26,871 nucleotides of DNA from positions 1 through 26,871 of the IMG/VR virus record IMGVR_UViG_3300035674_000012. The stretch is one strand, 5' to 3'. The position numbers were made by a program, and so were the translations under genes. The DNA is from a virus. A model generated the notes under the pieces. That model was given only the letters and a program-made list of their open reading frames with translations, ran no database searches and was not told the origin of the DNA. This document shows positions 1-26,871 of the stretch, in pieces (positions within the stretch are counted from its first letter, which is position 1; each line of letters opens with the position of its first letter).

Positions 1-1
1 G

Positions 2-403
2 GCCACCGCCGCGCGGCGGCCGGCCACCCGGAAGACAGCCCCGCCGTCGAAGCCGGCCAGCGCCGGCCGGCGGGGGCGGCCCGTCGACACCGACGGGCAG
101 CGGCACCGCGACCTGGTCGCCCGCCGGGTACTGACCGGTGCCATCACGAAGGTGCAGGCCGCGGAGAACGAGGGCAAGTCGGTCCGCTCGATCGAGAAGT
201 GGATCGAGTCGTTCGAGATGCGCGGCGGCACAGCCACCATCGGGCCCGCCGACCCCGAGGTGCAGCCCGTCGACGACGGCGCGCAGGACCCCCTGACCGC
301 CGAGCTCGCAGGCCTGGTCGCCGACCCCGGCATGACCCGCCCCGCCCCCGTCCGCCCCGCAGCCCCGGCCGGGGCCGCCCCCGAAGCCGAGGTGACCCGG
401 TGA
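2..403 (+). CDS. C-terminal part of a helix-turn-helix-like protein (5' end outside window)
   Basis: The frame is open from the left edge to a TGA at 401-403, and no ATG or GTG occurs before a GTG at 152, so the true start lies outside. The visible 133 residues begin with a basic Ala/Pro/Arg linker, then a charged helical segment (GRPVDTDGQRHRDL, then KVQAAENEGKSVRSIEKW) that could form a helix-turn-helix, then an Ala/Pro-rich acidic tail. I do not recognise the family. The stop overlaps the GTG of the translocase gene (GTGA), so the two are translationally coupled and probably co-function, for example as a DNA-binding partner or regulator of transfer. That role is inferred from position only. 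Confidence 0.6.
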   Translation, partial: ATAARRPATRKTAPPSKPASAGRRGRPVDTDGQRHRDLVARRVLTGAITKVQAAENEGKSVRSIEKWIESFEMRGGTATIGPADPEVQPVDDGAQDPLTAELAGLVADPGMTRPAPVRPAAPAGAAPEAEVTR

Positions 404-2745
404 CCAGCCGAAAGACCGACATCACGACCCGCCGCGACCCCGAGTCGAAGACGACCGAGGCCCGGATGCGGCCGTTCACGTCGGTGCTGCTCGCCGGCCT
501 GCTGATCGTCCCGCTGGTGATCCTCGCGCTGCGCCTCTACCAGGTGCCGTTCCCGCACGAGCGGTGGTTCATGACGTGGCTGTCCCTCGTGCTGTTCGGC
601 GTGTTCGGCCCGCTGATCGCGCTCGCCGTCGGGTACAAGGTCGCCGAGCGGCGCCTGCCGTTCGTGGTGTGGCACGTCGCCGCGACCGTGCACCTGTTCG
701 CCGTCGCGATCAGCCTCGGCATGCAGGTCGGGTGGGACCGGCCCGACACCGACCCGTGGTACCTGCGGCTCCGTGACGACGCCGCGGCCCCGGGTAGCCG
801 GGTGTTCATCGCGTACATGATCGGCGCGGCGGCGGTGTGCGGGTCGTGGCTGCTGTACCGGATCAACGCGTTCCGGTCCGCGACGAACTCCGGCGGCGAC
901 GGGTCCGGCGACTCGTGGTCGGAGCTGCTGAAGATGCCGCAGGGCGCGTCGGTGCGGCGCGGGTCGATCGTCGTCGACGACGTCGCCACGCAGGCCGAGA
1001 TCGACCACCCCGGCGTGCCGATCGCCGACCTCCGCGCGAAGCTGCCCGCGCTGGAAGAGGCGGCCGGCGCGATCCGCGGCCGTTCGTCGATCGTCGGAGG
1101 TGAGCGCGGCGGCACCTCGACCGTGCGGATGGTCCACACCGACCCGCACAAGGAGTGGAAGCCGTGGCCCGGCCTGTCCTTCCCCGGGGGGTCGTATTCG
1201 TGGCCGATCCGGACGTCGTACTACAGCGACGGGCAGGTGCAGTGGTACTCGTTCTGCCGTACCCCGAAGGGTTTCCGAAGCGAGCTCTGCCCGGGGTTCC
1301 GTTCGCCGAACGACGTGTTCAAAGGTTCGCAGGGGATGACCGGCGCAGGTAAGTCCGGCGAGGCGGCGATCGAGACGGCCGAGGTGCTGTCGCGAAGGAA
1401 TGTCGTCGTCGCGTACCTCGACCTTGCGAAGCTGCTGCAGAACGCTGGCTGGTGCATGGACTTCCTGACGCTCGCCGTCGGTAACTCGGGGCAGTCGCGG
1501 CTGTTCTGGCGGGGGATGCGGATGCTCGGCGAATACCGTTCGCGGGTCCTCGGCGAACACCGCAACTTCAACGACGAAGCCGCCGAAGCGACGGGGCTGC
1601 CGTGGGTGCACATCTTCGCCGACGAGTTCGACGTCGTGAAGAACTCCGCCGACGTGAAGTGGCTCGCGACGAAGGGCCGGTCGCTCGGGTTCCGACTTTC
1701 GTTCGCGCTGCCCCGCGCCACCGCCGCCGGCATGGACTCCGACGTTCGCGGCGCGGTCGGCATGTGGGCGCAGTTCGGCATCAGCCAGGACTACGACAAG
1801 GGCTTCGTGCTGTCGGCGGAGACGATGGCGGCTGGCGCGAACCCTGAGGCGTTCGGCGCTCGCCTGCCCGGCGTGCACTACCTCGACCAGGCGCCCGGGA
1901 TCCCCGAGCAGCGGTACCCGGTCGACTGCCGCTCGTACGAGACCCACGACGACTACGGGGACCTGCGCCGGGCGGTCGAGGCGGCCCGCGCCACGTTCAC
2001 CCCGGCCACGTTCACCCCCGGCGAGGTCGAGGTGCTGACCAAGGCGGGCGTGTGGCAGGCGTGCCGTCCGTCCGTCGTGCGCGCCGGCCGCCTCGGCATG
2101 GTCGACGACGACGCCCCGGCGGCTGCGGCCCTGCCGGTGCAGCCGCCGGCTCAGGCCGGCGGCGACGGGTTCGACCTCGGCCTGCCCGACGACGAACAGG
2201 CCGCCCTCGCCCGCGCCCGCGGGGCCGAGGCCCGCAACACCGGCGCCCGCCCGGGCGCCGCCAGCCCGAAGGGAACCAGCATGCCCCCTGTCGACTTCGA
2301 CACCGACACCAACGGCCACCACGACACCGGCGACGACGACCTCGACGCCCTCCTCGACGAGTCCCGCCAGCTCGCCGACCTGTCCGAGTTCCGCGACGAG
2401 AACGGGCGGCTGCCCGAGCACGACGACCCGCTGCCGGACTACTCCGACGGCGACATTGACGATTTGCCGACGGGCAAGCCCGAGCCCCGCGACCGCGCCC
2501 ACGCGATCGCCGAGTTCGACGCCGCGCTGATCCGGATGGCGCAGCGCGGCGTGACCCGGTTCCGCAACGCCGATCTGATCGCGGAGATGACGGTCGAGGC
2601 TGACGAGTCGATGATCTCGAAGCGGTTCACGGCGCTGTGCGACGACGAGGCGCTGACGCCGCCGGGGATCGTGATCGAGCGGGAGGGCCGCGGGCAGTTC
2701 CTGCTGACGCGAGTCTCGCCCGACGCGGGCGTGCACGGGGCGTGA
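400..2745 (+). CDS. FtsK/SpoIIIE/TraB-type membrane-anchored DNA translocase
   Basis: This 781-residue protein is a hexameric-type motor ATPase that moves double-stranded DNA through a membrane. Four membrane segments lie at about residues 27-47, 55-77, 84-104 and 130-148. The motor domain carries Walker A (GMTGAGKS, 312-319) and Walker B (hydrophobic run ending D408-E409). After about residue 560 comes an Ala/Gly/Asp-rich linker, and the last 80 residues look like a winged-helix domain, as in the FtsK gamma or TraB C-terminus that reads DNA repeats. The GTG at 400 is chosen because it makes a GTGA overlap with the upstream gene and sits behind GAGGTGA (389-395); a longer open frame to 199 only shadows that gene. 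In actinomycetes, a stand-alone FtsK-like protein of this size with an N-terminal membrane part is the hallmark of conjugative plasmids and AICEs. A role in phage DNA segregation is the alternative. Confidence 0.88.
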   Translation: MTSRKTDITTRRDPESKTTEARMRPFTSVLLAGLLIVPLVILALRLYQVPFPHERWFMTWLSLVLFGVFGPLIALAVGYKVAERRLPFVVWHVAATVHLFAVAISLGMQVGWDRPDTDPWYLRLRDDAAAPGSRVFIAYMIGAAAVCGSWLLYRINAFRSATNSGGDGSGDSWSELLKMPQGASVRRGSIVVDDVATQAEIDHPGVPIADLRAKLPALEEAAGAIRGRSSIVGGERGGTSTVRMVHTDPHKEWKPWPGLSFPGGSYSWPIRTSYYSDGQVQWYSFCRTPKGFRSELCPGFRSPNDVFKGSQGMTGAGKSGEAAIETAEVLSRRNVVVAYLDLAKLLQNAGWCMDFLTLAVGNSGQSRLFWRGMRMLGEYRSRVLGEHRNFNDEAAEATGLPWVHIFADEFDVVKNSADVKWLATKGRSLGFRLSFALPRATAAGMDSDVRGAVGMWAQFGISQDYDKGFVLSAETMAAGANPEAFGARLPGVHYLDQAPGIPEQRYPVDCRSYETHDDYGDLRRAVEAARATFTPATFTPGEVEVLTKAGVWQACRPSVVRAGRLGMVDDDAPAAAALPVQPPAQAGGDGFDLGLPDDEQAALARARGAEARNTGARPGAASPKGTSMPPVDFDTDTNGHHDTGDDDLDALLDESRQLADLSEFRDENGRLPEHDDPLPDYSDGDIDDLPTGKPEPRDRAHAIAEFDAALIRMAQRGVTRFRNADLIAEMTVEADESMISKRFTALCDDEALTPPGIVIEREGRGQFLLTRVSPDAGVHGA

Positions 2746-2758
2746 CGGCCCGGCGTCT

Positions 2759-2937
2759 CCGGAAAGTCGACGCGGGCCGCGCCGAGACTCCGACGGCCGC
2801 GTTACTACAGGTCAGGGGCGATCTTTCCGCCGGAAAGTCGCCTGCAAGTCCCGAAGAAAGATCCGGAAAGTCCGGCTGCAAGAACCTGCGGGGGCCCGGC
2901 AAGCCGCCGCAACTCCACGGCAAGAACCCGGAAAGAT
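2759..2937 (+). repeat. CCGGAAAG iteron-like repeats, possible clt/translocase recognition region
   Basis: The 219-base gap after the translocase gene holds four direct copies of CCGGAAAG, starting at 2759, 2830, 2863 and 2928. The first three extend to CCGGAAAGTC. Spacings are 71, 33 and 65 bases. Copy two is half of an inverted repeat CTTTCC-GCC-GGAAAG (2823-2837). CTGCAAG also occurs twice (2842-2848, 2876-2882). TraB proteins are known to bind short repeats in a clt locus close to traB, so this is a candidate site; an iteron-type replication origin or operator is possible too. Confidence 0.5.
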
Positions 2938-2964
2938 GACCGACGGTAGCGAAAGAAGGAATCC

Positions 2965-3339
2965 ATGCCCACGCTCCCCCCGTCTACAGACAAGGTCCGC
3001 AACGGCGAGTCGATGAACGCCATGGTCCGGGCCACCTCCGCGGCGATCATGGCCGGCCACGACTTCCTCAACAACATGGCGGCCCGGCTGCACCAGGGCA
3101 TCGTGAACAAACTGGTGTCGGAAGGCCTCGACGGGTCCGGCCGGTTCGGTATCGGCTCGGACGCGAAGCGGGCCGCGGACTCCGTCGCCGGGCCGCTGCA
3201 GCGCGCCGCGGACAACCTGAAGGCGGCCGCCGCGCTGATCAACAAGGCGGGCCACAACTTCGACTCGAACGTCGTGCAGCCCGTGACGCGGGCGCGGTAC
3301 GAACGTGAGCACTCCAAGTCCGGCGAGCTCGACTTCTAG
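2965..3339 (+). CDS. Hypothetical helical protein, 124 aa
   Basis: The ATG at 2965 follows a good Shine-Dalgarno (GAAAGAAGGA, 2951-2960). The protein is mostly helical and soluble, with Ala-rich amphipathic stretches in the middle (SDAKRAADSVAGPLQRAADN, residues about 63-82) and no membrane segment or signal peptide. I do not recognise the family. It is the first gene after the CCGGAAAG repeats and directly precedes small membrane-protein genes in the same direction. Small genes behind traB in actinomycete plasmids often encode spread (Spd) proteins, but nothing in this sequence proves such a role. Confidence 0.7.
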   Translation: MPTLPPSTDKVRNGESMNAMVRATSAAIMAGHDFLNNMAARLHQGIVNKLVSEGLDGSGRFGIGSDAKRAADSVAGPLQRAADNLKAAAALINKAGHNFDSNVVQPVTRARYEREHSKSGELDF

Positions 3340-3361
3340 GCACCCTCGGGAAGGGATGACC

Positions 3362-3748
3362 ATGCTCACCAGCAGTGCCCGCCGAGCTCGGCGGGCCCGG
3401 GACTTTCAGATCATGCGCGACTCTGCCCTGCGGGAGTACGGGCGGCGCAACCGCGGGCTGATCCTGTTCGGGCCGTTCTTCGGCCGGGTCGGGGCGGTGC
3501 TGCTCGTCGCGGTCGGCTGCTGGTGGGCGTGGGTCGAGGTCGACCGGCAGGTGCTCGCGTCGGTGGTCGGTGGTGTCGGCGCGGTTCTCGCGCTGGTGTA
3601 CGGGCTGCAGGTCGCGGCGGGTGGCGGGCTGCAGGACCGGATGGTGCGGCGGGTGAGCGGCGCGGGGGGTCCGCGGCACGTGGTCGGCGCGGCCGGTGTG
3701 TGCCTGCTGGCCGCGGCGGTCCTGATGGTGTGGGGTGCGCCGTGGTGA
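3362..3748 (+). CDS. Small membrane protein, three transmembrane segments
   Basis: A protein of 128 residues with a basic cytoplasmic N-terminus (about 32 residues, Arg-rich) and three hydrophobic segments at roughly residues 33-58, 63-86 and 106-127. Of two nearby ATGs (3356 and 3362), the second is chosen because GGGAAGGG (3347-3355) would touch the first but sits 6 bases from the second. The same pattern of an SD followed by GATGACCATG recurs before the gene at 8912. The gene shares GTGA with the next one, so it lies in one operon with the pyrophosphohydrolase. The family is unknown; small multi-pass proteins beside TraB are typical of plasmid spread modules, which is only a positional hint. 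Confidence 0.72.
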   Translation: MLTSSARRARRARDFQIMRDSALREYGRRNRGLILFGPFFGRVGAVLLVAVGCWWAWVEVDRQVLASVVGGVGAVLALVYGLQVAAGGGLQDRMVRRVSGAGGPRHVVGAAGVCLLAAAVLMVWGAPW

Positions 3749-4380
3749 CGTTCGCGGGGTTGCTGCGGCTGCACCGGTCGGCGTCGGTCGGGGTGCCGTT
3801 CCTGGTGTGGCTGGCGCCCGACGGGTCGGTGTGGGCGGCGCCGTACGGTACGGCCCCGCCGGTCGGTGGGGTGTTGTCGGCGGAGTGGGTGTGCCTCGAC
3901 GATGAAGCGCCCGTGCGTGAGCGGCCCCCCGCGGGGCCGGACGTGCACGCGTTCGTGCCCGGGGCGGTGGCGAAGGATGCGTGCCAGGGCCCGGATCCGT
4001 GGCGGTTCGGGGACCGCTGCTACCTGCCTGAGGCGCACCCGGTCCACCGGCCGCAGTCGATCGACGCCGCGCACCTCGCCCGGCAGCGCGCGTTCTCCGA
4101 GCGCACGTTCGGGCCGGGTCTGCGTACCGAGGGCATCATCGACCACATCAGGAAAGAGCTGAGGGAGATCTCCGCCGACCCCACGGACGTCGAGGAATGG
4201 GTCGACGTCGTGATCCTCGCCTTCGACGGGGCGTGGCGCGCCGGGCATGAGCCGCAGGCCATCATCGACGCGATCGCCGCGAAGCAAGCCCGCAACGAGG
4301 CGCGGACGTGGCCCGACTGGCGAACCGCCGACCCCGGCCGCGCGATCGAGCACGTCCGCGACGCGGGCGGTGCGCGGTGA
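3745..4380 (+). CDS. DUF550/MazG-like dATP/dGTP pyrophosphohydrolase
   Basis: This 211-residue protein probably hydrolyses dNTPs to dNMP plus pyrophosphate. Its C-terminal half (about residues 105-208) matches the DUF550 family (Pfam 'dATP/dGTP pyrophosphohydrolase, N-terminal'), an all-alpha MazG-type fold. E138 and E141 in KELREI, and E151 and D154 in EEWVDVV, are the expected metal ligands. They are followed by the family signatures DGAWRAGH and AKQARNEARTWPDW. The first 100 residues are a separate, unrecognised region with aromatic, proline-rich sequence. GTG 3745 gives a GTGA overlap with the previous stop. Such enzymes occur in phages, where they trim nucleotide pools; the cyanophage S-2L MazZ relative serves 2-aminoadenine DNA synthesis. 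No PurZ or DatZ partner is seen here, so base modification is not implied. Confidence 0.85.
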   Translation: MTFAGLLRLHRSASVGVPFLVWLAPDGSVWAAPYGTAPPVGGVLSAEWVCLDDEAPVRERPPAGPDVHAFVPGAVAKDACQGPDPWRFGDRCYLPEAHPVHRPQSIDAAHLARQRAFSERTFGPGLRTEGIIDHIRKELREISADPTDVEEWVDVVILAFDGAWRAGHEPQAIIDAIAAKQARNEARTWPDWRTADPGRAIEHVRDAGGAR

Positions 4381-4628
4381 GGCGGGGCCGGCGCCGGACG
4401 TCCATCACCACGGCCCGCGGCACAGAGCACGTCGTCGCCCGCAGCGTGGTGCGGTACCTCGGTGTCGGGGTCGCCGTGCAGGCGGTCGGGCACCTCGCCC
4501 TGACCGGCTGCGTGTGGGCGTGGCTGCCCGAGGGGGTCCCGGGTGCCCGGGAGTTCTTGGTCGTGTCCGCGGTGTTCGGGTTCGTGGGTCTCGCCGCGGC
4601 CGGCCTCGCGGTGGGGTGGTCGCTGTGA
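4377..4628 (+). CDS. Small membrane protein, two transmembrane segments
   Basis: An 83-residue protein with an Arg-rich start and two hydrophobic stretches: about residues 25-43 (VRYLGVGVAVQAVGHLAL) and 62-82. The start is the GTG at 4377, overlapping the stop of the pyrophosphohydrolase gene by GTGA. A longer frame back to 4308 merely shadows that gene. It is followed 13 bases later by the GIY-YIG gene. The function is unknown. The strong coupling suggests that its level is tied to its neighbours. Confidence 0.65.
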   Translation: MRRGRRRTSITTARGTEHVVARSVVRYLGVGVAVQAVGHLALTGCVWAWLPEGVPGAREFLVVSAVFGFVGLAAAGLAVGWSL

Positions 4629-4641
4629 CGAGGCGGCGCTG

Positions 4642-5058
4642 ATGGACGTCATCGCCTGCGCCCTGTTCGTGGCCGGCGCGCTGCTGCTGATCGCAGCTCT
4701 CCGCGGCCGCCGCCGACGCCCCACCGCGCGCCCCGCCCCCGCCAAGCCGGCCCCGCGGCGGCGCCGCCGCCCGAACCGGCACCAGACCCACTACGGCTAC
4801 CACTACCTCCACGCCACCCCCGGCCGCGGCCGCCGATACATCGGCATCGGGGTCCGCCCCGAGGACCGGCACCGCGACCACGAACGGAAGTGGTGGTTCC
4901 CGTCCTGCACCGGCGTGCAGTACGTCGTCGCCGAGTTCCCCGACTGGTGGACGGCCCGGGCGTGGGAACGCGAAGAGGTCATCTTCGCCGCGCAGCGCGG
5001 CGAGCCGATCGTGAACATCGAACACAACCCGCACGCCCGCCGACGGGCCCGGGTATGA
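4642..5058 (+). CDS. Membrane-anchored GIY-YIG nuclease-like protein
   Basis: A protein of 138 residues. Residues 2-21 form one transmembrane anchor, followed by a very basic Arg/Pro linker (22-47). From residue 50 comes a GIY-YIG-like domain: GYHY (52-55), YIG (66-68) on the second strand, then basic RHRDHER (76-82) with candidate catalytic Arg and His, E109 or E111 in the helix AWEREEVIF, and a final VNIEHN (124-129) with the Asn typical of the family. This is an endonuclease fold cutting DNA with one metal ion. The start is ATG 4642 behind GACGAGGCGG. A nuclease held at the membrane close to a DNA translocase might process transferred DNA or exclude foreign DNA; this is inference. Residue assignments are by eye. 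Confidence 0.7.
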   Translation: MDVIACALFVAGALLLIAALRGRRRRPTARPAPAKPAPRRRRRPNRHQTHYGYHYLHATPGRGRRYIGIGVRPEDRHRDHERKWWFPSCTGVQYVVAEFPDWWTARAWEREEVIFAAQRGEPIVNIEHNPHARRRARV

Positions 5059-5141
5059 AGCGGCGGGCCGGACCGCACCGCCCGACCCGCCGCCGCCTCA
5101 TCCGAGTAGCGCGCTACTCCCGACCGGAAGGCTCCCCATGA
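5055..5141 (+). CDS. Candidate 28-residue basic peptide
   Basis: A short open frame that begins with ATGA overlapping the stop of the GIY-YIG gene and ends with a TGA inside the ATGA start of the next gene, so it fits perfectly between two coupled genes. The product is highly basic (10 Arg and one Lys in 28 residues). There is no obvious Shine-Dalgarno, and a palindrome lies within the frame (5104-5119). It could be a real translational relay or just the leader of the next gene. Confidence 0.3.
   Translation: MKRRAGPHRPTRRRLIRVARYSRPEGSP
5104..5119. promoter_or_regulatory. Perfect 16-bp palindrome, candidate operator
   Basis: GAGTAGCGCGCTACTC is a perfect uninterrupted palindrome 19 bases before the ATG at 5138 and just ahead of its Shine-Dalgarno (GGAAGG, 5125-5130). 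Its AT-containing arms stand out in this GC-rich DNA. It could bind a dimeric repressor or form an RNA hairpin that affects translation of the next gene. No convincing promoter hexamers flank it. Confidence 0.45.
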
Positions 5142-5584
5142 CACCGAACCCGCCCCCCGACCCGGCGACCCGGTCGTTCCGCGACCGCGTCTCCGGACTC
5201 CTGAACAACATCGGCCCCGCGCCGGCCGGCGCCGCCGCCCCGCCGCCGGTCCCGGTCGACGACCCGACGGTCGAGATCCCCACCGTCCCGCCGGTCGTCC
5301 CCGTCGTGCCCGGCCCGCCGGCCCGGCCGTCCCTGCGCCCCGACCCGCGGCACCGCTCCCGACGCGGCCCGTGGGACAGCAGCCCGGTCGGCGGCGACGC
5401 CCCGCACATCATCCTGCCGGGCCACGGCCGGATCCCCCTCACGGTCGACGCGAGCCCGGCGGCGGTCGCTGACGCGGTCGACCGGGTCCGGGCGGAGGGC
5501 CGGCCGCTGCACGTCGCGGCGCCGCCCGCGGTGTGGTTCGACCTTTTCGGGTGGCGGGTCTACCGCCCGCGGCGGCTGCGGTGA
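5138..5584 (+). CDS. Proline-rich hypothetical protein, 148 aa
   Basis: Start ATG 5138 behind GACCGGAAGG, a leader shared with the genes at 9514 and 9719. The N-terminal third is short and charged. Residues about 25-65 are an Ala/Pro/Val-rich, probably extended linker. The C-terminal part (about 85-148) looks like a small folded domain with alternating beta and alpha segments (APHIILPGHGRIPLTV, then a helix, then RPLHVAAPPAVWFDLFGWRV). Third codon positions are almost all G or C across the gene, so it is the true coding strand here rather than the long minus-strand frame that also covers it. The family is unknown. Confidence 0.65.
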   Translation: MTPNPPPDPATRSFRDRVSGLLNNIGPAPAGAAAPPPVPVDDPTVEIPTVPPVVPVVPGPPARPSLRPDPRHRSRRGPWDSSPVGGDAPHIILPGHGRIPLTVDASPAAVADAVDRVRAEGRPLHVAAPPAVWFDLFGWRVYRPRRLR

Positions 5585-5995
5585 GCGCCCGCCGGCTCGA
5601 CCTCGAAGACGCCCGCCGGTGGCGGCTGCGGCCTCGGTGCCGCCGCCCACGCCGTCGGCCTTGGTACGCGCGGCTCCCGCGGGGGCGCTGGTGCTGACCT
5701 TCCGCGTCCGGGCTTCTCGGGCGAGGCGGGCGTCGCGTTCGGCGCGGACCTGCTGGCCGAACTCGTACCAGTCGGTGATGGGGGCGCGGCCGACGCCTTG
5801 CCTCGCGGCGACCGGCGTCGGCGCGGGTGTCGGGGGTGCTGTGGTGGTCGTGAACGGTGCCGGGGTGGGGGCGACGATCCCGGCGGCGGTGATGGCGGCG
5901 GCGACCGCGGTCGCGGCGCCGGCCCGGGCTGCCGCTGCCTTGACGGGCGCTGGCCGGCGGTGCCGTGCCTTGAAGTTTCCGTGGCGGGGAGTCAT
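5560..5995 (-). CDS. Secreted or membrane-anchored protein on the opposite strand, apparent 1-base frameshift near 5613
   Basis: It starts at ATG 5995 reading left. The N-terminus is basic (RHGNFKARHRR) followed by an Ala-rich hydrophobic run (about residues 20-50), like a signal peptide or anchor. A Thr/Pro/Ala linker follows, then a charged helical segment (ITDWYEFGQQVRAERDARL, about 83-101). Codon use is convincing from 5995 to about 5620. The uninterrupted frame then runs on to 5114, but there its codon bias collapses and it is antisense to the proline-rich gene. Removing one G from the GGG at 5612-5614 would join a well-biased frame (GVFEVEPAG) ending at 5560, just past the end of the convergent neighbour. 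The stated end follows that reading. The family is unknown. Confidence 0.5.
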
Positions 5996-6008
5996 GCCCC
6001 GCACCCTA
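5996..6008 (-). promoter_or_regulatory. -10 element of a likely leaderless promoter
   Basis: Reading leftward, TAGGGT (6008-6003) is followed by 7 bases (GCGGGGC) and then the ATG at 5995. That places the expected transcription start on the A of the start codon. No Shine-Dalgarno precedes this ATG. The same layout occurs at 7162-7175. A TTGACG on this strand (6038-6033) is too far from the -10 (24 bases) to be its normal partner. Confidence 0.45.
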
Positions 6009-6023
6009 ACCCGAGAGGTGACC

Positions 6024-6218
6024 ATGGAGTTTCGTCAACGTGTGGGTGTCGCCTGGTTCGGCCATCGTTCCCGGGCCGGCACCTGCCAGTGTTGCCAGCG
6101 CGCCGCTCCGGTGTTCGCCGGGTACAACGGTGGACAGCCGATGGGTGTCGATGCCTGCGCGGTGTGCTCGCAGCCGGGCCACAGCGAGTGCACGACCCCT
6201 CCGGGGGTGCCCCGCTGA
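6024..6218 (+). CDS. Small cysteine-rich, probably zinc-binding protein
   Basis: A 64-residue protein with start ATG 6024 behind GAGAGGTG (6013-6020). It is divergent from the minus-strand gene at 5995, so the 28 bases between the two starts carry both upstream signals. It has Cys/His pairs CQCC (about 22-25), CAVC (46-49) and HSEC (53-56), which could coordinate one zinc ion in a ribbon- or treble-clef-like fold. The gene is followed by a TGATG junction that could continue into the globin frame. The family is not recognised; similar tiny zinc proteins are frequent in actinophages. Confidence 0.6.
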   Translation: MEFRQRVGVAWFGHRSRAGTCQCCQRAAPVFAGYNGGQPMGVDACAVCSQPGHSECTTPPGVPR

Positions 6219-6337
6219 TGCGCCTCCCGTGGAGTGGCCCGCCCCGCGCCGGATGGAACGGCGGGACCACCGAGACCCGGCTCCCCGCCCCCGACGCACC
6301 CACCGAACAGTTCCCGAAGATCCGAGAGGACCCACCC

Positions 6338-7060
6338 ATGACCGACACCGACACCGACACCGGCTACCCCACCGACGCGCACACCGTCCCCGACGAGCAG
6401 CCGCAGCCGCGGCAGTCCCACCGCACCCCCTGCCCGACGTGCCGCGGCCGCGGCGTCGTCCCCACCGTCGCCGACCTGCTGCAGGAGTCGATCGCGCTGG
6501 TGCAGGACGGGGACCTCGTGGTCCGCGCGTTCTACGCGTCGCTGGTCGAGCGGGCCCCGCACCTGGTGCCGCTGTTCCCCGCCGACCTGATCACCGCGAC
6601 GGCCGGGGAGGAGGGCAGCCCGGGCGCGCACCAGCGGGAACGGCTGCTCGCCGCGATCGTCGCGCTCGCCACCCACTACGACGACACCGACCCCGAAGCG
6701 ATGGCGTACATCAACCGGGCGGCCCGCACGTTCGGGGAGCACCACGCCCTGTTCTTCCGGGGTGAGGGCGTGCCGGCGCAGGGCGCCACCCCCGACGAGT
6801 ACGCGCTGGTGAAGGTCGTCCTGTTCGACACGCTGCACAGGGCGGCGGGCGCCGCGTGGCTGCCGGAGTACGACGCGGCGTGGTCGCAGGCGTACGACGA
6901 CCTGCAGATCGAGATGCAGCACGCGGCGAAGGCGTTGCGGGAACGCGCGGCGCGGGGCGAGGTGGTGTTGCAGCCGCGGTATCCGCGGCAGGCGAACCGG
7001 GAGGTGCGGGCCGTGGGCCGGTACGGGCCGGACGACCCGGGGTCGGACGACCGGGACTGA
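6338..7060 (+). CDS. Flavohaemoglobin-type globin with N-terminal CxxCxGxG motif
   Basis: A protein of 240 residues. C32-P-T-C35-R-G-R-G39 is a single DnaJ-type zinc motif. Residues about 45-200 align well with the globin domain of flavohaemoglobins: FYASLVERAPHLVPLF, then HQRERLLAAI, then the F-helix EHHALF and W(x)nAWSQAYDDL. The key haem-pocket residues are present: Tyr66 (B10), Gln99 (E7) and His136 (proximal F8). These residues suit O2 binding or NO dioxygenation, but no FAD/NAD reductase domain follows; the tail is short and charged. Start ATG 6338 is preferred because GAGAGGACCCACCC resembles the leader at 9514. An in-frame ATG at 6218 overlapping the previous stop would add 40 residues. 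This is the last gene before the terminator at 7084. Confidence 0.78.
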   Translation: MTDTDTDTGYPTDAHTVPDEQPQPRQSHRTPCPTCRGRGVVPTVADLLQESIALVQDGDLVVRAFYASLVERAPHLVPLFPADLITATAGEEGSPGAHQRERLLAAIVALATHYDDTDPEAMAYINRAARTFGEHHALFFRGEGVPAQGATPDEYALVKVVLFDTLHRAAGAAWLPEYDAAWSQAYDDLQIEMQHAAKALRERAARGEVVLQPRYPRQANREVRAVGRYGPDDPGSDDRD

Positions 7061-7073
7061 CCGGGGTCGTCCG
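7044..7073 (+). terminator. Stem-loop at the end of the globin gene
   Basis: CGGACGACC (7044-7052) pairs perfectly with GGTCGTCCG (7065-7073) around a 12-base loop that contains the stop codon. There is no T-run. It may stabilise the mRNA 3' end or help the stronger hairpin just downstream. Confidence 0.3.
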
Positions 7074-7083
7074 CGACTGTCCG

Positions 7084-7123
7084 AGGGCGGCGGGGTGGCT
7101 GGTGTGCCAACCTGCCGCCCTTT
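7084..7123 (+). terminator. Strong intrinsic-type terminator
   Basis: AGGGCGGC (7084-7091) pairs with GCCGCCCT (7114-7121). The stem continues through a G-T wobble and GGGTGGC/GCCAACC (7093-7099 with 7106-7112, one mismatch). This gives about 16 base pairs with a six-base loop, followed by TT. It lies 24 bases after the globin stop and before the next promoter, so it should end the first rightward transcription unit. Confidence 0.65.
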
Positions 7124-7146
7124 CGCGTGTCCACCCCTTCCGATCA

Positions 7147-7174
7147 CTACAGCGGGCGCTGTAGCCTTCGGGGC
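7147..7174 (+). promoter_or_regulatory. Palindromic operator overlapping a leaderless promoter
   Basis: CTACAGCGGGCGCTGTAG (7147-7164) is a perfect 8+2+8 inverted repeat. Its right end overlaps a -10 element TAGCCT (7162-7167), which is followed by 7 bases and then the ATG at 7175. Transcription should start at the A of the ATG. A poor -35 (TTCCGA, about 18 bases upstream) is the only candidate. A dimeric repressor (for example GntR-like, inferred) bound here would block the promoter and so shut off the middle operon. Confidence 0.6.
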
Positions 7175-7360: not shown

Positions 7361-7362
7361 CG

Positions 7363-8909: not shown

Positions 8910-8911
8910 CC

Positions 8912-9479: not shown

Positions 9480-9513
9480 ACGTGCCGCGCTCCCCAACCG
9501 GAAGGAACCACCC

Positions 9514-9690: not shown

Positions 9691-9718
9691 CGCGGCCCCT
9701 GACCGGAAGGAGCCACCG

Positions 9719-9973: not shown

Positions 9974-9983
9974 GAGGAGAACC

Positions 9984-10193: not shown

Positions 10194-10198
10194 CCGCC

Positions 10199-16932: not shown

Positions 16933-16937
16933 GCCGC

Positions 16938-19900
16938 TTACCTCCACCCGCCGGTGCGGACCTGCCGCGCCATGGTCCGCTGGTTCGACGACAGCGCCGC
17001 CGCCAGCCCGGCCGGGTTCTCCCGCACCGCGTCGATGAGCTCGCGCAGCAGCGCCTCGACGGCGCCGCTCGACGACGGGGCCTGCAACGGCTCGGGCCGG
17101 CCGGTGCGGTTCTCGATCAGGTTCCACCCGCGGCCGAGGGTGACGGACCCGAAGTCGGCGCGGGCGACCTTCGCGATCCCGCCGAGGCCCGGGTACGAGC
17201 CGGGCAGCCCCGACCGGCGTCCGATCAGCCCGCCGAGCGCCGCAGCCCAGTGCACGTGCGCGTTCCCGCCCGCGAAGTTGTGCTGGTTCCACACGGCGCC
17301 CGTGTACCGGTGGGGGCGGCCATTGAGCAGGTTCAGCTCTTGAAACGGGGTGATCAGCTCCTTCGTGCGGCCGCCGAACGTGGCGCGGATCCACGCGGCG
17401 AGCGCCCGCGACGGCGGGTAGTCCACGGCCCGGCCGCGGGCGTGGTACGACAGCCTGCCCGACAGGGTCCGAGACCCGGGCCGGAAACCGGAGATCATGC
17501 CGAGGCCGGGGAACCGCGCCGAGATCAGCCGCTGCATCCCGCGGTACCCGCCGAGGACGCTGCCGCCGCCGATGCCCGCCGCGCTGCCCGCCGCGCCGCC
17601 GAGGGTGCTGTCGATCCACTGCCCGACCCACCCGATCGCCTTGCGGCCGAGCGACACCATCATGTCGCGGATCCCGCCGCCGCCGGGGATCCGGGCGATC
17701 GCCGCGTTCGCGACCTTCGCGAGGGCCGCCTTCGGGTCGGCGACCATCGACGCGGCGCCCTTGATCCCGTTCCACACCTTCCCGAAGAAGTCGCCGATGC
17801 CGTCGCCGATGGGGCCGCCGCGGGCGCGGCCGTCGAGGACCGGGTCGAGGTCTTCGTGGGTGACCCGGCCCCGCTTGTCGTTGATGACCCGCATCAGCGG
17901 CAGGTTCGCCGACGTCGACAACGCGTTCGTGATGAACTCGCCCGTGGCGACCTTCAGGATCCCGCCGGGCCCACCGGCGAGCATGTTGTCGACGGTCGAC
18001 GCGGCGCCGGGGATGCGGCCGCCCCGGTCGGGTAGGCCGCCGCGGGCGAACCCGGGGATCCGGGCCGGGGTCCTCACGTTGAAGAAGTCGCCGACCATCC
18101 GCAGGCCGTGCAGCAGCGGGTTGATCACCGAGTTCACGACGAACGCGACGGGCTTGCGGGCGGCTTCCCGCACCCCGTCCCACGCCCGCCGGATCGCGTC
18201 GGTGCCGGCGCGGAACCCGTCCGGCAGGGTCCTCATGATGAAGTTCCGCAGCGGGTCGAACACGCCCGTCCTGATGGCCTGCCAGCCCCTCGACAGGGTC
18301 CCCGTGATCCCGTTCCACGTCGGGACGATGATGTTGCGCCAGAACCAGGTGAACGCCGGGGCGAGCGTCCCACGGATGAACCCGATCACCGCGGTGAAGA
18401 TCGCCCGGGCGAGGTTCCACCACGTCTGGATCTGCACGCGGATCCCGTTGAAGACGGGCACGACGATGTTGCGCCACAGCCACGTGAACGTCGGCGCCAG
18501 CACCGTCCGGAAGTACATGACGGCGGCCTTGAAGATGATCTGCGCCATCGCCCACCACACCTGCACGGCGAGGCGGATCCCCGCGAACGCGGGGGCGACG
18601 ATGTTGCGCCACAGCCACATCACCGTCGGCGCGACGACGTTGCGGAAGTACGCCACCCACGCCAGGAACACCGGCTGCAGCACGGTCCGCCACAGCCACG
18701 TCGCCCCCGACGCGATGCCGTCCCACACCGCCCGCAGCGTGGGCAGCGCCGACGTCATGAACCAGTTCGCGACGGACTGCGCCGCCGCCTTGATGCCCTG
18801 CCACGCCGCGGTGACGACCTTCCTGAACGTCTCCGAGCGGGTCCACGCCAGGTACACCGCGCCCGCCAGCGCGGCCAGCGCGGCGACGACCAGCCCGATC
18901 GGGTTCGCGGTGAGGACTGCGTTCATGATGGTCTGCACCGCCGCCCACGCCTTCGTCGCGGCCGTGACCAGCTTCGTCGACGCGAGGTACTTCAGCAGGC
19001 TCCCCGCGCCCTGCACGGCGGTGATCGCCGCCGACGTCAGCATGACCGCCCGGTACGCGACCAGGGACCCGACGAGCGCCTTCACCGCCCACTCGTTCTG
19101 CGCGAGGTACCCGGCGACCGCGGCGATCGCCGGGGTGAGGGCACGCAGCACCTGCGCGGCGATCCCCGCGACGAGCGGCAGCAGCGGCGCGAACGCCGTC
19201 ACGAGCTGCACCGCCGGCCCGGCCGCACCGGCGATCGCCGGGCCGAGGACCCGGAACGAGTCGGCGACGGCCGGCAACGCCACCGCCAGGCCCTGCCGCA
19301 GGGCGTCCCCGATCCGGGCCATGGTGCCGAGCAGCGCGTTGATCCCGGCGACGCCCCGCGCCGACGTCGCGAAGTCGGCGATCTCCCCGGTGAGCTGGTC
19401 GAACGTGACGAGCAGGGACCCGCCCTGCTGGTTCGCGGACCGCAGCACCTGCGCGAAGATCACCCCGATGTTCCCGGCCGTGTGCGCGAGGGTCTTCAAC
19501 GTCTCGACGCCGTCGCGGAACACCTGCACGACCGCCCCGGACTGCGACGCGTGCACCACGAAGTCCCGCACCCGCTCCACCACCCGGGTGAACCCGGCCG
19601 CCATGCCCGGCAGGGTCGGCAGGGTCGCGCGGAGCAGCGCGACCATCGCGTCCGTCGCCGGCTGGATCGCGCCCTGCAGCGCGGTGACGGCGCCGCCCGT
19701 CGACCGGAACGATTCCCGCAGCGTCGCCACGACAGGCGCGGACCGGGCCACTTCGAGGACCCTCGACCCGAACAGGCCCATCTGCCCGCCGAGCGCCGCC
19801 ATCTCCGTCCGGAACAGCGGCACGTACGTGTTCACGAGGGGCTGCATGTCGTCGACCATCGGCGCGAAGAACCGCTCACCCACCGACTGCCGCACCGACT

Positions 19901-20450
19901 GAATGACCGACTTCAACCCGACCAGGGACTCGGTGACGGCCCGCTGCGCCGGGGGCAGGTCTTCGAGGGCCTTCTGGTAGGCCTTCGCGCTGCCGTACAG
20001 ACCCTTCTTGACCGCGTCGGACACCTGAAACGTGGCGACCTTGAACGTCTGCGTCGCCGTCACCGCACCCGCGATCGCCGGGGCGAGCCCGACCACGGCG
20101 CCGGCCGCCGGCAGCAGCGCCGCGGTGAGCTGCAGCACCCCCGGCGCGGCCGCCGCCGCCCCAGCCCCGATCAGCGCGAACCGCGACAGCATCACCTGCG
20201 CGACCTTCTTCAGGGTGCCGCCGAACCCGCTCTCGAACCCCGCCCCGAACCCCCGGCCGGACCTGCCACCCATCGACACGAACCGGCCGTGCGCGTCGCG
20301 GAGCTTCCCGTCGGCGCCGCGGGTGACGCCCTCACCGAGCGCGGCGCCGCCGGCCTCACCCGCGGACGTCGCCGCCGCGACGACCGTCGGCTTGACCCGC
20401 CGCATGTCGGCGTGCACGACGAGCGCGGTCTCGGCCAGCGTGGGCGCCAC
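16938..20450 (-). CDS. Tape measure protein with C-terminal M15-like peptidase domain
   Basis: An 1170-residue protein, the largest gene here, starting at GTG 20450 just after the chaperone stop (20455); an ATG at 20474 would overlap that gene. There are several hydrophobic stretches in the first 600 residues (GAGAAAAAPGVLQLTAALLP, LLPLVAGIAAQVLRALTPAI). Three 45-residue Trp-rich repeats (PTFTWLWRNIVVPVFNGIR) lie at about 570-705. The C-terminal domain (about 965-1075) resembles a DD-peptidase/M15 fold: H1003 and D1010 in YHARGRAVDY and H1065-V-H1067. It sets tail length and, at infection, could cut peptidoglycan cross-links. The acid that usually precedes the HxH is an Ala here (1064), so activity is uncertain. 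Confidence 0.85.
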   Translation of the reverse strand: MAPTLAETALVVHADMRRVKPTVVAAATSAGEAGGAALGEGVTRGADGKLRDAHGRFVSMGGRSGRGFGAGFESGFGGTLKKVAQVMLSRFALIGAGAAAAAPGVLQLTAALLPAAGAVVGLAPAIAGAVTATQTFKVATFQVSDAVKKGLYGSAKAYQKALEDLPPAQRAVTESLVGLKSVIQSVRQSVGERFFAPMVDDMQPLVNTYVPLFRTEMAALGGQMGLFGSRVLEVARSAPVVATLRESFRSTGGAVTALQGAIQPATDAMVALLRATLPTLPGMAAGFTRVVERVRDFVVHASQSGAVVQVFRDGVETLKTLAHTAGNIGVIFAQVLRSANQQGGSLLVTFDQLTGEIADFATSARGVAGINALLGTMARIGDALRQGLAVALPAVADSFRVLGPAIAGAAGPAVQLVTAFAPLLPLVAGIAAQVLRALTPAIAAVAGYLAQNEWAVKALVGSLVAYRAVMLTSAAITAVQGAGSLLKYLASTKLVTAATKAWAAVQTIMNAVLTANPIGLVVAALAALAGAVYLAWTRSETFRKVVTAAWQGIKAAAQSVANWFMTSALPTLRAVWDGIASGATWLWRTVLQPVFLAWVAYFRNVVAPTVMWLWRNIVAPAFAGIRLAVQVWWAMAQIIFKAAVMYFRTVLAPTFTWLWRNIVVPVFNGIRVQIQTWWNLARAIFTAVIGFIRGTLAPAFTWFWRNIIVPTWNGITGTLSRGWQAIRTGVFDPLRNFIMRTLPDGFRAGTDAIRRAWDGVREAARKPVAFVVNSVINPLLHGLRMVGDFFNVRTPARIPGFARGGLPDRGGRIPGAASTVDNMLAGGPGGILKVATGEFITNALSTSANLPLMRVINDKRGRVTHEDLDPVLDGRARGGPIGDGIGDFFGKVWNGIKGAASMVADPKAALAKVANAAIARIPGGGGIRDMMVSLGRKAIGWVGQWIDSTLGGAAGSAAGIGGGSVLGGYRGMQRLISARFPGLGMISGFRPGSRTLSGRLSYHARGRAVDYPPSRALAAWIRATFGGRTKELITPFQELNLLNGRPHRYTGAVWNQHNFAGGNAHVHWAAALGGLIGRRSGLPGSYPGLGGIAKVARADFGSVTLGRGWNLIENRTGRPEPLQAPSSSGAVEALLRELIDAVRENPAGLAAALSSNQRTMARQVRTGGWR
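18331..18735 (-). repeat. Three tandem 135-bp coding repeats in the tape measure gene
   Basis: The motif ATGTTGCGCC recurs at exactly 135-base intervals (18331, 18466, 18601). On the minus strand it encodes a 45-residue unit with the core WLWRNIVxPxFNGI. A shorter related core (ATWLWRTVLQPVF) comes 81 bases upstream in the gene. A run of in-frame units suggests tail-length change by duplication. Confidence 0.75.
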
Positions 20451-20715: not shown

Positions 20716-21344
20716 ACGAGGCCCCGCCGCTCCCGCGCTTCGACTGCGAGCATCACCTGCGCCGCCAGGTCCGGCCTGCCCTGCGCCTCGTACTCCGCCA
20801 CGAACGTCTCTCCGAGCTCCCGCGCGGATCTGCCGCCGACCGGTCCTGACGCACCAGCCAGCGACTTCGTCGGGGTTTCTCGCCGCCCATCCGCAGAGTC
20901 GGACGGCGGCGGCGTAGGGCGGTCCGTGATCAGTTCGAGGATCCGCCAGCACACCTTGACGACCTGCGGGACGCCCTGCCGGTTCGCCTGCGCGGTGTCC
21001 CAAAAGTCGTCGAAGTCGTCCGGGTGCAGGTGCCCCCGGACGTAGTCCTTCGCCGCGAGCAGGTTCCGCGGGTCGTCGACGTCGACCTCTTCGGCCTCTT
21101 CGAGCAGGTCGACGACCTGCGTCTCGGACAGGTCCGGGTTCACCCGGAACGTCTTGCCGAAGTACACGAACTCGGCCGTGATCGGGTCGACCTGCTCACC
21201 CGACAGGTCGCCGAGGTCGAGCTGCCGGCCCCGGATCAGCGGCAGCATCGGCCGGTCCATCGCCTCTTGCGCCTGCGCCTGCTGCTCGCGCAGGTCCGGG
21301 CGCGGACCGGTCTGCGGCCCGCGCCTACGTCCCCGCCGCGACAT
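20706..21344 (-). CDS. Tail assembly chaperone (G type)
   Basis: A 212-residue protein starting at ATG 21344 (TGATG junction with the tail tube stop). It has a basic start (SRRGRRRGPQTG), then a conserved-type middle (ITAEFVYFGKTFRVNPDLSE, then LLEEAEEVDVDDP, YVRGHLHPDDFDDFWD, VVKVCWRILELIT), then a Pro/Ser/Thr-rich linker and a last helix. Its position between tail tube and tape measure and the overlap with a -1 frame are diagnostic of the G/GT chaperone pair. The end overlaps the second frame at 20706-20708. Confidence 0.75.
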   Translation of the reverse strand: MSRRGRRRGPQTGPRPDLREQQAQAQEAMDRPMLPLIRGRQLDLGDLSGEQVDPITAEFVYFGKTFRVNPDLSETQVVDLLEEAEEVDVDDPRNLLAAKDYVRGHLHPDDFDDFWDTAQANRQGVPQVVKVCWRILELITDRPTPPPSDSADGRRETPTKSLAGASGPVGGRSARELGETFVAEYEAQGRPDLAAQVMLAVEARERRGLVTV

Positions 21345-21922
21345 CAGACGCCCTTCCGGACGTTCGTGCCCTTGACCTTGAAGATGTTGCCGGACCCGTC
21401 GAGCTCGAACCGGAACTCGCACGGGATCACGGCGATCGCCGGGGCCTTCGCGAACGCCATCTCCATCTCCGCGACGTTGATCGTCGAGTACATGAAGATC
21501 CGCATCGTCGAGTCGGACGACTCCCACAGCAGCGCCGACCGGGTCTCGTTCCCGAGCCCGGGCGGGGTCAGCTCGTTGTCCTCGGTCGCACCCGACCCCG
21601 TCGACGCGATCGTGCCGCCGTTCATCGCCCGCTTCAGGTTCTGCAGGGTGAAGTCGGCCAGGTTGAACGAGAACGACCCCTCACGGGCCACCGTGCGCCA
21701 CTTCACCGGGTCGAGGAACTCGGCGACCGTGACGGCCTCGATCGACGGGGCGTACCGGAACCGCTTCCCGTCCTCGGTCGCGCCGACCTCGATCCACGTC
21801 ACGGACGGCGCGTCGACGTACTTCGAGCCGACCGGCGCGCCCGTGGGGAACGCCGTGCCGGCGGGTGCGTGCCACAGGAACCCGGGGTCCTGCATCAGGA
21901 ACGGAGTTGCCACCGTAGGCAT
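21344..21922 (-). CDS. Major tail (tube) protein
   Basis: A 192-residue protein. ATG 21922 is chosen; the frame runs on upstream only as shadow. Beta-rich sequence (KYVDAPSVTWIEVGATEDGK, FSFNLADFTLQNLKRAMNGG, EMEMAFAKAPAIAVIPCEFR, ELDGSGNIFKVKGTNV) matches the tail-tube fold of siphophages, which stack as hexamer rings. It lies right before the chaperones, the expected order, and stops in TGATG with the chaperone start. Confidence 0.75.
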   Translation of the reverse strand: MPTVATPFLMQDPGFLWHAPAGTAFPTGAPVGSKYVDAPSVTWIEVGATEDGKRFRYAPSIEAVTVAEFLDPVKWRTVAREGSFSFNLADFTLQNLKRAMNGGTIASTGSGATEDNELTPPGLGNETRSALLWESSDSTMRIFMYSTINVAEMEMAFAKAPAIAVIPCEFRFELDGSGNIFKVKGTNVRKGV

Positions 21923-23245: not shown

Positions 23246-24109
23246 TCACCCGAACCCTGGTCGCGGCGACGGGTGCCGCCGGTAGATCGCGTCGACGGCC
23301 GGCAGGCCCGTCGACTCCTCCGACGGCGCCCGGTACGTCGTCGACGTCTGGTCGGTCGTGACGACCCGCCGCTCCGCGTTGTCCGGCAACGCCGACTGCC
23401 CTTCGAGCGCCAGGGACTTGAACCGCAGCCGCGCCCCCCGCACGATGTCGACCGGTGGCCGGTCGTGGCCGTGCTCGACCTCGACCACGATGTTCCGGCC
23501 GCCGGCCGGCCACTCCCGCGGCAACGTCAGCAGCCCCTGGTCGTCGAACCCGACCTTCGCGAGTTCCGGCACCGTGAACGCCGTCCCACCGACCCGGACG
23601 GACCGCACCGCCCGGATCATCGTGTGCGGCAGCTCCAACCAGGTACGGCCCCGACCGGACAGCACGCACCGCGCGAACCGCGGCACCCACGCCTGCCCCG
23701 TCATCAGCTCGCACTCGTCTTCGGTCTCGGCGCGGACCTCGACCAGCCGGGACGTCGGGTACTTCGCCGTCGACGCGAGGGTCGAGTCGGCCGCCCGCGC
23801 CTCCGCGATGCTGAAATAGAACCCGCCGACCACCTGAATCACGTCCTGGTCGAGAACGATCGCGTCGCCGCCGATGTTCAACGCCCACTGCACGACCAGC
23901 TCGTCGAGGACGTCCCGGCCGGGGAAGTCGTACGCGTACTCGTGGTCGGCGCCCGGGCCGGACGCGTTGACCGGCCCGTGCACGACCGTCCCGTCGCCCC
24001 GCAGCACGGTCACGACGACGTTCCCCGTCGCGTCCGTCGCCACCTCGTCGAGGTGGAACGTCCGCGACAGGGTCGCCTTCGCCGTCCTGAGGACTCGGAA
24101 CGTGGTCAC
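23246..24109 (-). CDS. Head-tail connector/adaptor protein
   Basis: A 287-residue protein starting at GTG 24109 behind GAAGGCG. The first about 100 residues are Ig-like strands (NVVVTVLRGDGTVVHGPVNA). The rest holds helices and a connector-like motif: helical FYFSIAEARAADSTLASTAK, then LVEVRAETEDECELMTGQAW, then RCVLSGRGRTWLELPHTMIR, and a C-terminal loop ending in SPRPGFG. The 'sec...V...tdeceltg..W' helix pattern is like phage head-tail connectors fused to an N-terminal domain. Gene order agrees. Confidence 0.65.
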   Translation of the reverse strand: MTTFRVLRTAKATLSRTFHLDEVATDATGNVVVTVLRGDGTVVHGPVNASGPGADHEYAYDFPGRDVLDELVVQWALNIGGDAIVLDQDVIQVVGGFYFSIAEARAADSTLASTAKYPTSRLVEVRAETEDECELMTGQAWVPRFARCVLSGRGRTWLELPHTMIRAVRSVRVGGTAFTVPELAKVGFDDQGLLTLPREWPAGGRNIVVEVEHGHDRPPVDIVRGARLRFKSLALEGQSALPDNAERRVVTTDQTSTTYRAPSEESTGLPAVDAIYRRHPSPRPGFG

Positions 24110-25556: not shown

Positions 25557-25584
25557 GCCTGCCCCTTCCCGGTGCCTAGGCGGA

Positions 25585-26871
25585 TCAGAACGTCGGCGCG
25601 ACCAGGCCGGTCCCGCTGATGTTCTGCACCGCGTTCGAGAACCGGCGGAAGGTGTACGCGAAGTAGCCGTACAGCACGAGCTGCACGCCGAGGGAACCGG
25701 CGGCCGGCTGCTCGGCCCGGATGAACACCGGCGCGTTCGGGTCCTCCCACAGGTGGCACTCGTCGGTGTCGACGACGTAGATCTTGTCCTCGTTCGTGCC
25801 GGCGCCCGCGTTCGTGGGGATGTTGTTGTCGGTCACGACGACCAGGCCGGACGGCAGGACACCCCGCGCGCCGGACCCGTACTGCGTGCCCAGGTTGACG
25901 CCCATGGCGTTCCCGGCGATGCCGGGCTGCGCGAACGCCGGCCACGACGACGAAAGCTGCGACTGCAGCCAGAACCAGCGCCGCGAGTGCATGAGCGCGA
26001 TCTTCGCCGAGCCGTACCCGAGCAGGGACGACTCGACGCCGGCCGCCGCGCCGAGGATCTTCGGCCACAGCAGCGCCGCCGTCGGTGAACCGGAGGTGAA
26101 CAGGTTCGCGACGGACACCGCGTCGAGGCCCGTCGCGGCCTGCGTGATCAGGGTCGCGTCGAGGGTCTGCGCGTACCGGCGGAACAGGTCGTCCATGACG
26201 ACGTTCTCGATGCCGGTGCCGCGCTCGATCGCCTGCCGGCTGATCGTCTGCTGCCCCGCCGCGGTCTGCACGTTCTCCGTCAGGATCGTGTCGTCCATGT
26301 CCTGGTTCGGGACGTTGGTGTTCTCCGTCGCCTGCAGACCCACGGTCGTCGCCGTGGTGATCCGGCTGATGTTGACCTGCATGCCGGTCTCGGGCAGGTC
26401 GTGCCGGTTCATCGCGTCGGCGAAAGGCCGCAGGTTCGAGATCGCCGGGGCGTACATCTCGGTCAGGTACTGCGGGACCACGAGGCCGGCGAACGCGCCG
26501 GTGCCGACGGCGCGTTCGAGGTACTGGCCGCGCTCGACCCGCTCCTCCTGCATGTGCCGGGCGAGACGCTGCTCGGCTTCGAGGTCACCCGTGCGGTAGT
26601 GCTGCGCCACGACGTCGCGGACGAACTGCCCGCCACCGCGGGTGTTCTGCTGGTTGTACGTCCGCTCTTCGCGGGAGACCCGGACGACGTGGTCGTACGG
26701 CGCCGGCTGGCCGCCGCGCTGCTGCCCGGACGACGGGCCGACCGGCGACGGCGCGGTGACCCCGGTCGAGGTGCGCTGCGACAGTTCGTCCTCGGTCTGC
26801 AGCTCCGCGGCGCGGGTGCGGCGGGCGATGTCGAGACGGTGCTCGACGCCCTTCGCCCGGGTCAGGCAGTC
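25585..26871 (-). CDS. HK97-fold major capsid protein (5' end outside window)
   Basis: The frame is open from the right edge to a stop at 25585: 428 residues visible, with no start upstream of a GTG at 26610. The first about 90 residues form a helical, charged and Gly/Gln-rich region (scaffold/delta-domain-like: HRLDIARRTRAAELQTEDEL). The HK97 core follows: GLVVPQYLTEMYAPAISNLR, MQVNISRITTATTVG, TISRQAIERGTGIENVVMDD, then the P- and A-domain with LLGYGSAKIALMHSRRWFW and LPSGLVVVTDNNIPTN, ending VQNISGTGLVAPTF. It self-assembles into the capsid. Protease, portal and terminase genes are expected just outside the window. Confidence 0.85.
   Translation of the reverse strand, partial: DCLTRAKGVEHRLDIARRTRAAELQTEDELSQRTSTGVTAPSPVGPSSGQQRGGQPAPYDHVVRVSREERTYNQQNTRGGGQFVRDVVAQHYRTGDLEAEQRLARHMQEERVERGQYLERAVGTGAFAGLVVPQYLTEMYAPAISNLRPFADAMNRHDLPETGMQVNISRITTATTVGLQATENTNVPNQDMDDTILTENVQTAAGQQTISRQAIERGTGIENVVMDDLFRRYAQTLDATLITQAATGLDAVSVANLFTSGSPTAALLWPKILGAAAGVESSLLGYGSAKIALMHSRRWFWLQSQLSSSWPAFAQPGIAGNAMGVNLGTQYGSGARGVLPSGLVVVTDNNIPTNAGAGTNEDKIYVVDTDECHLWEDPNAPVFIRAEQPAAGSLGVQLVLYGYFAYTFRRFSNAVQNISGTGLVAPTF

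Follow-up and report, generated by a model that had tools for sequence, protein, structure and literature searches.

The DNA analysed, referred to below as the window, is a whole IMG/VR record: a linear fragment of 26,871 bp with no tRNA gene. A codon-based gene caller made for the analysis, which also supplied the gene starts in the relatives, places 41 genes over 94% of it, those on the plus strand extending from position 1 to 11,249 and the late genes, on the minus strand, from 26,871 to approximately 11,300. The late genes, as identified with PHROGs, form an ordered siphophage operon of capsid, connector, tail tube, tape measure, tail and fibre genes, and near the start of the plus strand is a gene, traB, for a translocase (Table 1). 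A preliminary description had taken the head-tail operon to be complete. Its order, and its presence on the same contig as traB, stand; its completeness does not, as the contig end truncates the capsid gene, with the portal, prohead protease and terminase genes outside the window. Due to that cut these three are missing from the window rather than absent from the phage, and in relatives they are placed just past the capsid gene.

Much of what follows involves comparison with five large relatives (G001, G002, G004, G046 and G047; 63–79 kb) that, with the window, constitute the set of TraB phages; all the relatives are metagenomic, from IMG/VR. Of the other genes on the plus strand, that with the dATP/dGTP pyrophosphohydrolase domain, a kind linked to altered-base phage DNA, has no homologue in the other five TraB phages. 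The globin-domain protein does have homologues in them (G001_1, G002_37, G004_55, G046_97 and G047_38), encoded in two relatives away from the traB operon; in all of them a G-x-x-H-(A/S)-x-F stretch is invariant and would suit a proximal haem histidine, and most have an N-terminal CxxCxGxG motif. At 10190–10681 (+) there is a weak match, below cut-off, to nucleoside 2-deoxyribosyltransferase (PF05014), with a homologue in G004, and within the tape measure gene three 59-nt direct repeats are present with a spacing of 135 bp (18306–18634).

Table 1. Positions of the main features of the window and what identifies them
Feature	Position	Strand	Evidence or remark
C-terminal part of HTH protein just upstream of traB	2–403	+	Cut by contig end; similar to G001_86 and G004_64
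TraB-family dsDNA translocase, 781 aa; 4 TM, RecA-like motor, C-terminal winged helix	400–2745	+	Plasmid TraB matches, hhalign, phrog_24831, structure predictions
clt-like direct-repeat array	2746–2964	+	CCGGAAAGTC at 2759, 2830 and 2863; variants at 2841, 2896 and 2928
Small soluble protein, always beside traB in the lineage	2965–3339	+	Kept in 6/6 phages
Small membrane protein, 3 TM, candidate spread-type partner	3362–3748	+	Homologues in 6/6 phages; no family match
dATP/dGTP pyrophosphohydrolase-domain protein	3745–4380	+	PF04447, E 1.9e-26
Small membrane protein, 2 TM	4377–4628	+	Homologues in G004 and G002; TM segments
Protein with one N-terminal TM segment	4642–5058	+	Conserved in G001 and G002
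Globin-domain protein	6338–7060	+	PF00042, 24.1 bits; homologues in 6/6 phages, invariant His
Conserved protein, end of late operon	11634–12074	-	Homologues in relatives
Large fibre/virion structural protein	12091–14694	-	phrog_37549, E 3.6e-18
Tail protein	15397–16545	-	phrog_1887, E 1.2e-10
Tape measure protein	16938–20450	-	phrog_4197, E 7.7e-84
Major tail (tube) protein	21344–21922	-	phrog_2175 and phrog_885
Head-tail connector	23246–24109	-	phrog_442
Major capsid protein, N-terminus cut by contig end	25585–26871	-	phrog_2263, E 5.2e-52; at least 246 relatives in IMG/VR

The translocase and the repeats beside its gene

That the window encodes a stand-alone TraB/FtsK motor with four membrane segments, and that the motor is of the conjugative-plasmid type, were both proposed in the preliminary description, and both have held. 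Hydrophobic segments are at residues 26–44, 60–78, 88–106 and 135–153, and four N-terminal helices are predicted in a full-length AlphaFold model that is poor overall (pLDDT 43), with the motor domain badly modelled; because of the latter, Foldseek gave no significant match to the full model. The Walker A (GxTGxGKSG-type) and Walker B (DE) motifs are invariant across the six phage TraB sequences. In the C-terminal 95 residues a winged helix is predicted with better confidence (pLDDT 82), for which no PDB match was significant at E ≤ 0.001, and profile alignment places it on the C-terminus of plasmid TraB. When a profile of the six phage proteins was compared with one of three plasmid TraB proteins, the alignment covered 634 columns (hhalign, E 1.7e-38), spanning both the N-terminal membrane region and the C-terminal domain. 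With the window protein as tblastn query 44 plasmid records were matched, 39 of them from Streptomyces and several annotated as TraB, at 23–31% identity, and TraB of pCQ3 was among the best (E 1e-24). A Pfam search gave no match, FtsK included, the sole PHROG match was to a family of unknown function (phrog_24831, E 8e-26), and none of the INPHARED phage records had a TraB match even at E 10.

Could this nevertheless be a host cell-division FtsK locus? FtsK in the PDB matches the window protein at E 0.17 only. Of 13 actinobacterial genomes searched with the phage TraB profile, four had TraB-type genes and nine had nothing at E ≤ 1e-3, from which it follows that the profile does not pick up ordinary chromosomal FtsK. 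These results, and the phage-operon context, rule out that identity. By its sequence the protein is a TraB-family dsDNA translocase that groups with TraB of conjugative plasmids and not with cell-division FtsK. TraB by itself moves dsDNA from a site termed clt, and Spd proteins serve intramycelial spread across septa (PMC4170104, PMC12857230).

In the 219-bp gap after traB, CCGGAAAGTC occurs three times on the coding strand, where 0.05 copies are expected, and nowhere else in the window; three further variants are in the same gap in the same orientation, and six of the 33 matches with two mismatches allowed are there also. The specific sequence is enriched in the window; the degenerate pattern GSAARTC shows no enrichment there. 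The gaps adjacent to traB in the five relatives also have clustered short repeats, mostly on one strand, though of differing type: GGAAAG in G004, TGCAAG in G002, G047 and G046, and TGCAA in G001. The array follows traB in the window, G001 and G004, and precedes it in G002, G046 and G047. It is clearest in G002, with nine copies of TGCAAG versus 0.01 expected, the densest 6-mer cluster in that genome, and weakest in G046 and G001. In an unbiased repeat scan the traB gap ranked first in G002, second in the window (a near-tie) and in G047, third in G001, fourth in G004 and seventh in G046, which shows that the strength of the array varies from phage to phage, from marked to modest. In the window, G002 and G047 hardly any good copies occur outside the traB locus.

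In each of the 12 plasmids inspected the gap that directly follows traB contains a direct-repeat array, mostly of CTGACAC or TGACACC with a few GCGCACC-like, and pFP3 too has a copy of the TGACACC-/GCGCACC-type in its traB gap. A search of the plasmid regions for GACCCGGA, which we take to be the known pSVH1-type repeat motif, yielded no array adjoining traB. A CCTAAG-like central element common to phage and plasmid gaps was considered and set aside, as it is weak and the look-alike in G046 and G047 overlaps the end of the upstream gene. What such an array can do is known from pWTY27, which by strain name we take to be match H25 in the tblastn list: its post-traB gap is the established cis-acting transfer locus, where deletions cut transfer about 10- to 1000-fold, and its TraB homologue footprints on the TGACACC repeats of the published clt (PMC3583192). 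According to work cited in the same paper, the winged helix of pSVH1 TraB uses its helix 3 to recognise 8-bp repeats. Among the phage proteins, the predicted TraB recognition helix ISKRFT goes with GGAAAGTC and GGAAAG repeats (window and G004), and SRRL with TGCAAG repeats (G002, G046 and G047). This is suggestive of repeat type tracking the recognition helix, with the reservation that only six sequences are involved and that the HTH protein encoded upstream co-varies too. The window array looks like a clt-like, putative TraB docking site; it could instead be an operator or promoter region.

In the relatives, the product of the full gene upstream of traB is a membrane protein with several TM segments and an HTH at the C-terminus. 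Of the five such proteins one (G004_64, E 6e-9) passes the cut-off for DUF2637 (PF10935), and annotated DUF2637 genes are near traB in six of the listed plasmid regions. Direct comparison of the phage protein with the DUF2637 protein of pFP3 revealed no homology, tblastn yielded no plasmid homologues of it, and the small membrane proteins of the TraB operon have no match to a known Spd family. SpdB2 of pSVH1 binds DNA, is integral to the membrane and interacts with TraB (PMC4170104); the upstream protein is, by analogy, a candidate for its functional counterpart. A second dense array of short repeats precedes the membrane-HTH gene in G001 (55951–56281), G002 (14844–15123), G046 (42268–42444) and G047 (77109–77360), with repeats of the types CTTCGC, TTCGCT, TGCGCC and GACGCAACG, and there it ranks first or second of all gaps; it could be an operator, an origin or a centromere.

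The phage lineage

In a search of 45 records, the translocase was found in those three of the closest capsid relatives that have the largest contigs, of 62.7, 63.7 and 69.8 kb. A scan of IMG/VR with the single window TraB sequence as pattern found no close relative; an alignment was needed to find more, and scanning with one added two TraB phages, of 76.4 and 79.5 kb. The gene order common to the TraB phages is membrane-HTH gene, traB, small protein, small membrane protein and further early genes, and in the window and all five relatives this operon is convergent with that running from capsid to tail. A chimeric contig is ruled out by the recurrence of the same operon pair, in the same orientation, in five other phages. 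A chance junction or a host FtsK locus, which the preliminary description had named as what would undo its reading, is countered by the same recurrence and by the profile skipping ordinary FtsK. The pairing of traB with the head-tail operon is, on these comparisons of sequence, more than chance, and the module is a conserved resident of the phage lineage.

G001, G002 and G004 have gene maps that differ from one another by circular permutation, each with its own breakpoint, which suggests that these contigs are near-complete, and the window is probably a fragment of a siphophage genome of 63–79 kb. In a capsid tree the window, these three and two short contigs form one clade (support 97/100), with G046 and G047 on a separate branch. 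TraB is not found in most relatives sharing the virion type, including seven other contigs of 59–88 kb whose capsid is of that type, which makes the module a trait of sub-lineages. The host of these soil phages we infer, from kin and GC content, to be a high-GC mycelial actinomycete.

What of the rest of the genome? The preliminary description had proposed examination of flanking sequence, which the relatives provide in part. Pooled, they encode terminase (phrog_9), portal, prohead protease, DnaB helicase, sliding clamp, a RuvC-like protein, endolysin and recombination proteins of the ERF or YqaJ type; the terminase and portal sought are there, and parAB and integrase were not found. Specifically, neither tyrosine integrase (PF00589) nor serine recombinase (PF00239), and neither ParA (PF13614) nor ParB (PF02195), was detected in the window or the five large relatives, and the earlier observation that the window has no integrase thus extends to them. 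No plasmid replication initiator is among the annotated genes; a DnaB-like helicase and clamp are there instead. These absences give the TraB phages the look of virulent phages, or of ones that persist in an unrecognised way. The earlier term, plasmid/phage hybrid, is apt for the plasmid-type translocase and not for a plasmid half: without ParA/ParB, initiator or integrase having been found, ‘hybrid plasmid’ overstates the case. In G004 (16867–18549) an S78 prohead serine protease is fused in one protein to a ClpP-like protease domain, and a large PhoD/alkaline phosphatase D-like protein is encoded both in G002 (54143–57445) and in the plasmid-phage pFP3 (597–3797).

Known elements and competing explanations

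The systems most like that of the window are the TraB/clt systems of Streptomyces plasmids (pSVH1, pIJ101, pWTY27, pCQ3 and pRL1), with which it shares full-length TraB homology including the N- and C-terminal domains, a repeat array in the gap adjacent to traB, small membrane proteins encoded downstream, and no need of a relaxase. It differs from them in the low identity of its TraB (the 23–31% given above), in repeat sequence, in the packaging and virion operon of its lineage, in having no recognised TraA, and in having no detected plasmid replication or partition genes. From the other direction, Mycobacterium phages such as Minerva, Baka and Wanda (109–113 kb) have a capsid 32% identical to that of the window and, in INPHARED, no TraB match.

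A search among actinobacterial phage-plasmids for homologues had been proposed, and pFP3 and pCQ3 proved to carry them. The capsid gene of the plasmid-phage pFP3 (NC_023067) belongs to this phage family, making the plasmid a natural bridge between the two groups: its capsid is 56% identical to that of the window over 86% of the query, and it shares with the TraB phages traB, a clt-like gap, DUF2637, DnaB and a virion operon. Unlike them it is 34 kb and has ParA and integrase, and its TraB groups with those of plasmids (30–34% identity versus 23–29% to phage TraBs). pCQ3 (85.5 kb) has traA and traB together with capsid, tail, ParA/ParB and integrase genes, its capsid gene having no tblastn similarity to that of the window. 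pZL12 and pSLE1, like pCQ3 and the window lineage, have a transfer gene and virion genes on one element; unlike that lineage all three have ParA/ParB, and pCQ3 and pSLE1 have one or more integrases. pZL12 is cited as a Streptomyces plasmid-phage with both plasmid and lytic cycles (J Bacteriol 2010, cited in PMC3583192, PMC4487206 and PMC7157519), and pFP4 as a published Streptomyces plasmid-phage (cited in PMC6950372). With pZL12, pFP4, pCQ3 and pFP3 as precedents, the combination of transfer and virion genes is not new. Literature searches for TraB-bearing phages of this kind turned up reviews and papers on plasmids and nothing else, and we could not find described the lineage, its size, its lack of detectable integration and partition genes, or the conserved clt-like locus in such phages.

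Given these precedents, are the TraB phages simply plasmid-phages in the strict sense of pZL12 or pFP3, resident as extrachromosomal plasmid prophages, with TraB for ordinary conjugation and with maintenance and replication genes too divergent to be recognised? The union in pFP3 of so similar a capsid with traB, DUF2637, parA and integrase, that in pCQ3 of traA/traB with virion genes, ParA/ParB and integrase, the two cycles ascribed to pZL12 in the papers citing it, and the circular maps with differing breakpoints of the three relatives compared are all in keeping with this. We nevertheless consider it unlikely, as ParA, ParB and tyrosine and serine recombinases are undetected throughout the six, whereas a tyrosine integrase is encoded by 8 of 17 capsid relatives that lack TraB. 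Further, 296 Streptomyces genomes gave no match at E ≤ 1e-45, a weak point as no positive control was among them.

It is improbable that TraB acts instead inside a single infected compartment, segregating or positioning replicated genomes or moving them toward sites of assembly. FtsK-type motors do move DNA within cells, and traB is in a conserved operon of early type; however, a terminase is already there for packaging, the closest families are transfer TraBs with clt arrays whose architecture is kept here, and most relatives with the same virion manage without TraB. Very improbable is that the repeats are operators of the upstream HTH protein, unrelated to a TraB whose transfer function has been lost or modified. 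In favour of this, a gene starts directly after the array, which is probably in a promoter region, the groups differ in the HTH recognition helix as well, and there is the second array upstream of the HTH gene. Against it, known clt arrays occupy the same place and are bound by TraB, the array switches sides of traB yet always touches it, and the near-restriction of good copies to one locus in the window, G002 and G047 bespeaks no regulon.

A possible route through the mycelium

The reading we prefer, at about even chances of being right, is that the phage-borne TraB/clt module moves the phage genome between mycelial compartments, alongside virion production. Its basis is the full-length TraB homologue, the polar array, the membrane-HTH neighbour in relatives, the small membrane proteins, and the retention of the unit in six phages. 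In outline, the C-terminal winged helix of TraB would dock on the repeats of intracellular phage DNA, and TraB, as a hexamer anchored through its four membrane helices, would pump the dsDNA genome across septal or hyphal membranes to neighbouring compartments. The membrane-HTH protein and the small membrane proteins may assist, in the role that Spd proteins have for plasmids, and the phage’s own terminase would package the same genome into virions. Spread both as virions and by TraB transfer, as originally suggested for the window, is documented elsewhere, for pZL12, and by analogy may apply here. A bolder form, which we put forward tentatively and think rather less likely to be right than wrong, is that non-lysogenic siphophages of mycelial bacteria use a stolen TraB/clt to thread naked genomes through septa and from hypha to hypha, so that one particle could reach many compartments without receptors or virions.

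To our knowledge, little is understood of the movement of phages through bacteria that are multicellular and septate. Were the module to work as proposed, an infection could pass through a colony with no need of receptors, particles or lysis, and would bypass defences acting at adsorption. The phages themselves would be vehicles of TraB-type transfer, with conjugation and virion spread joined in one genome.
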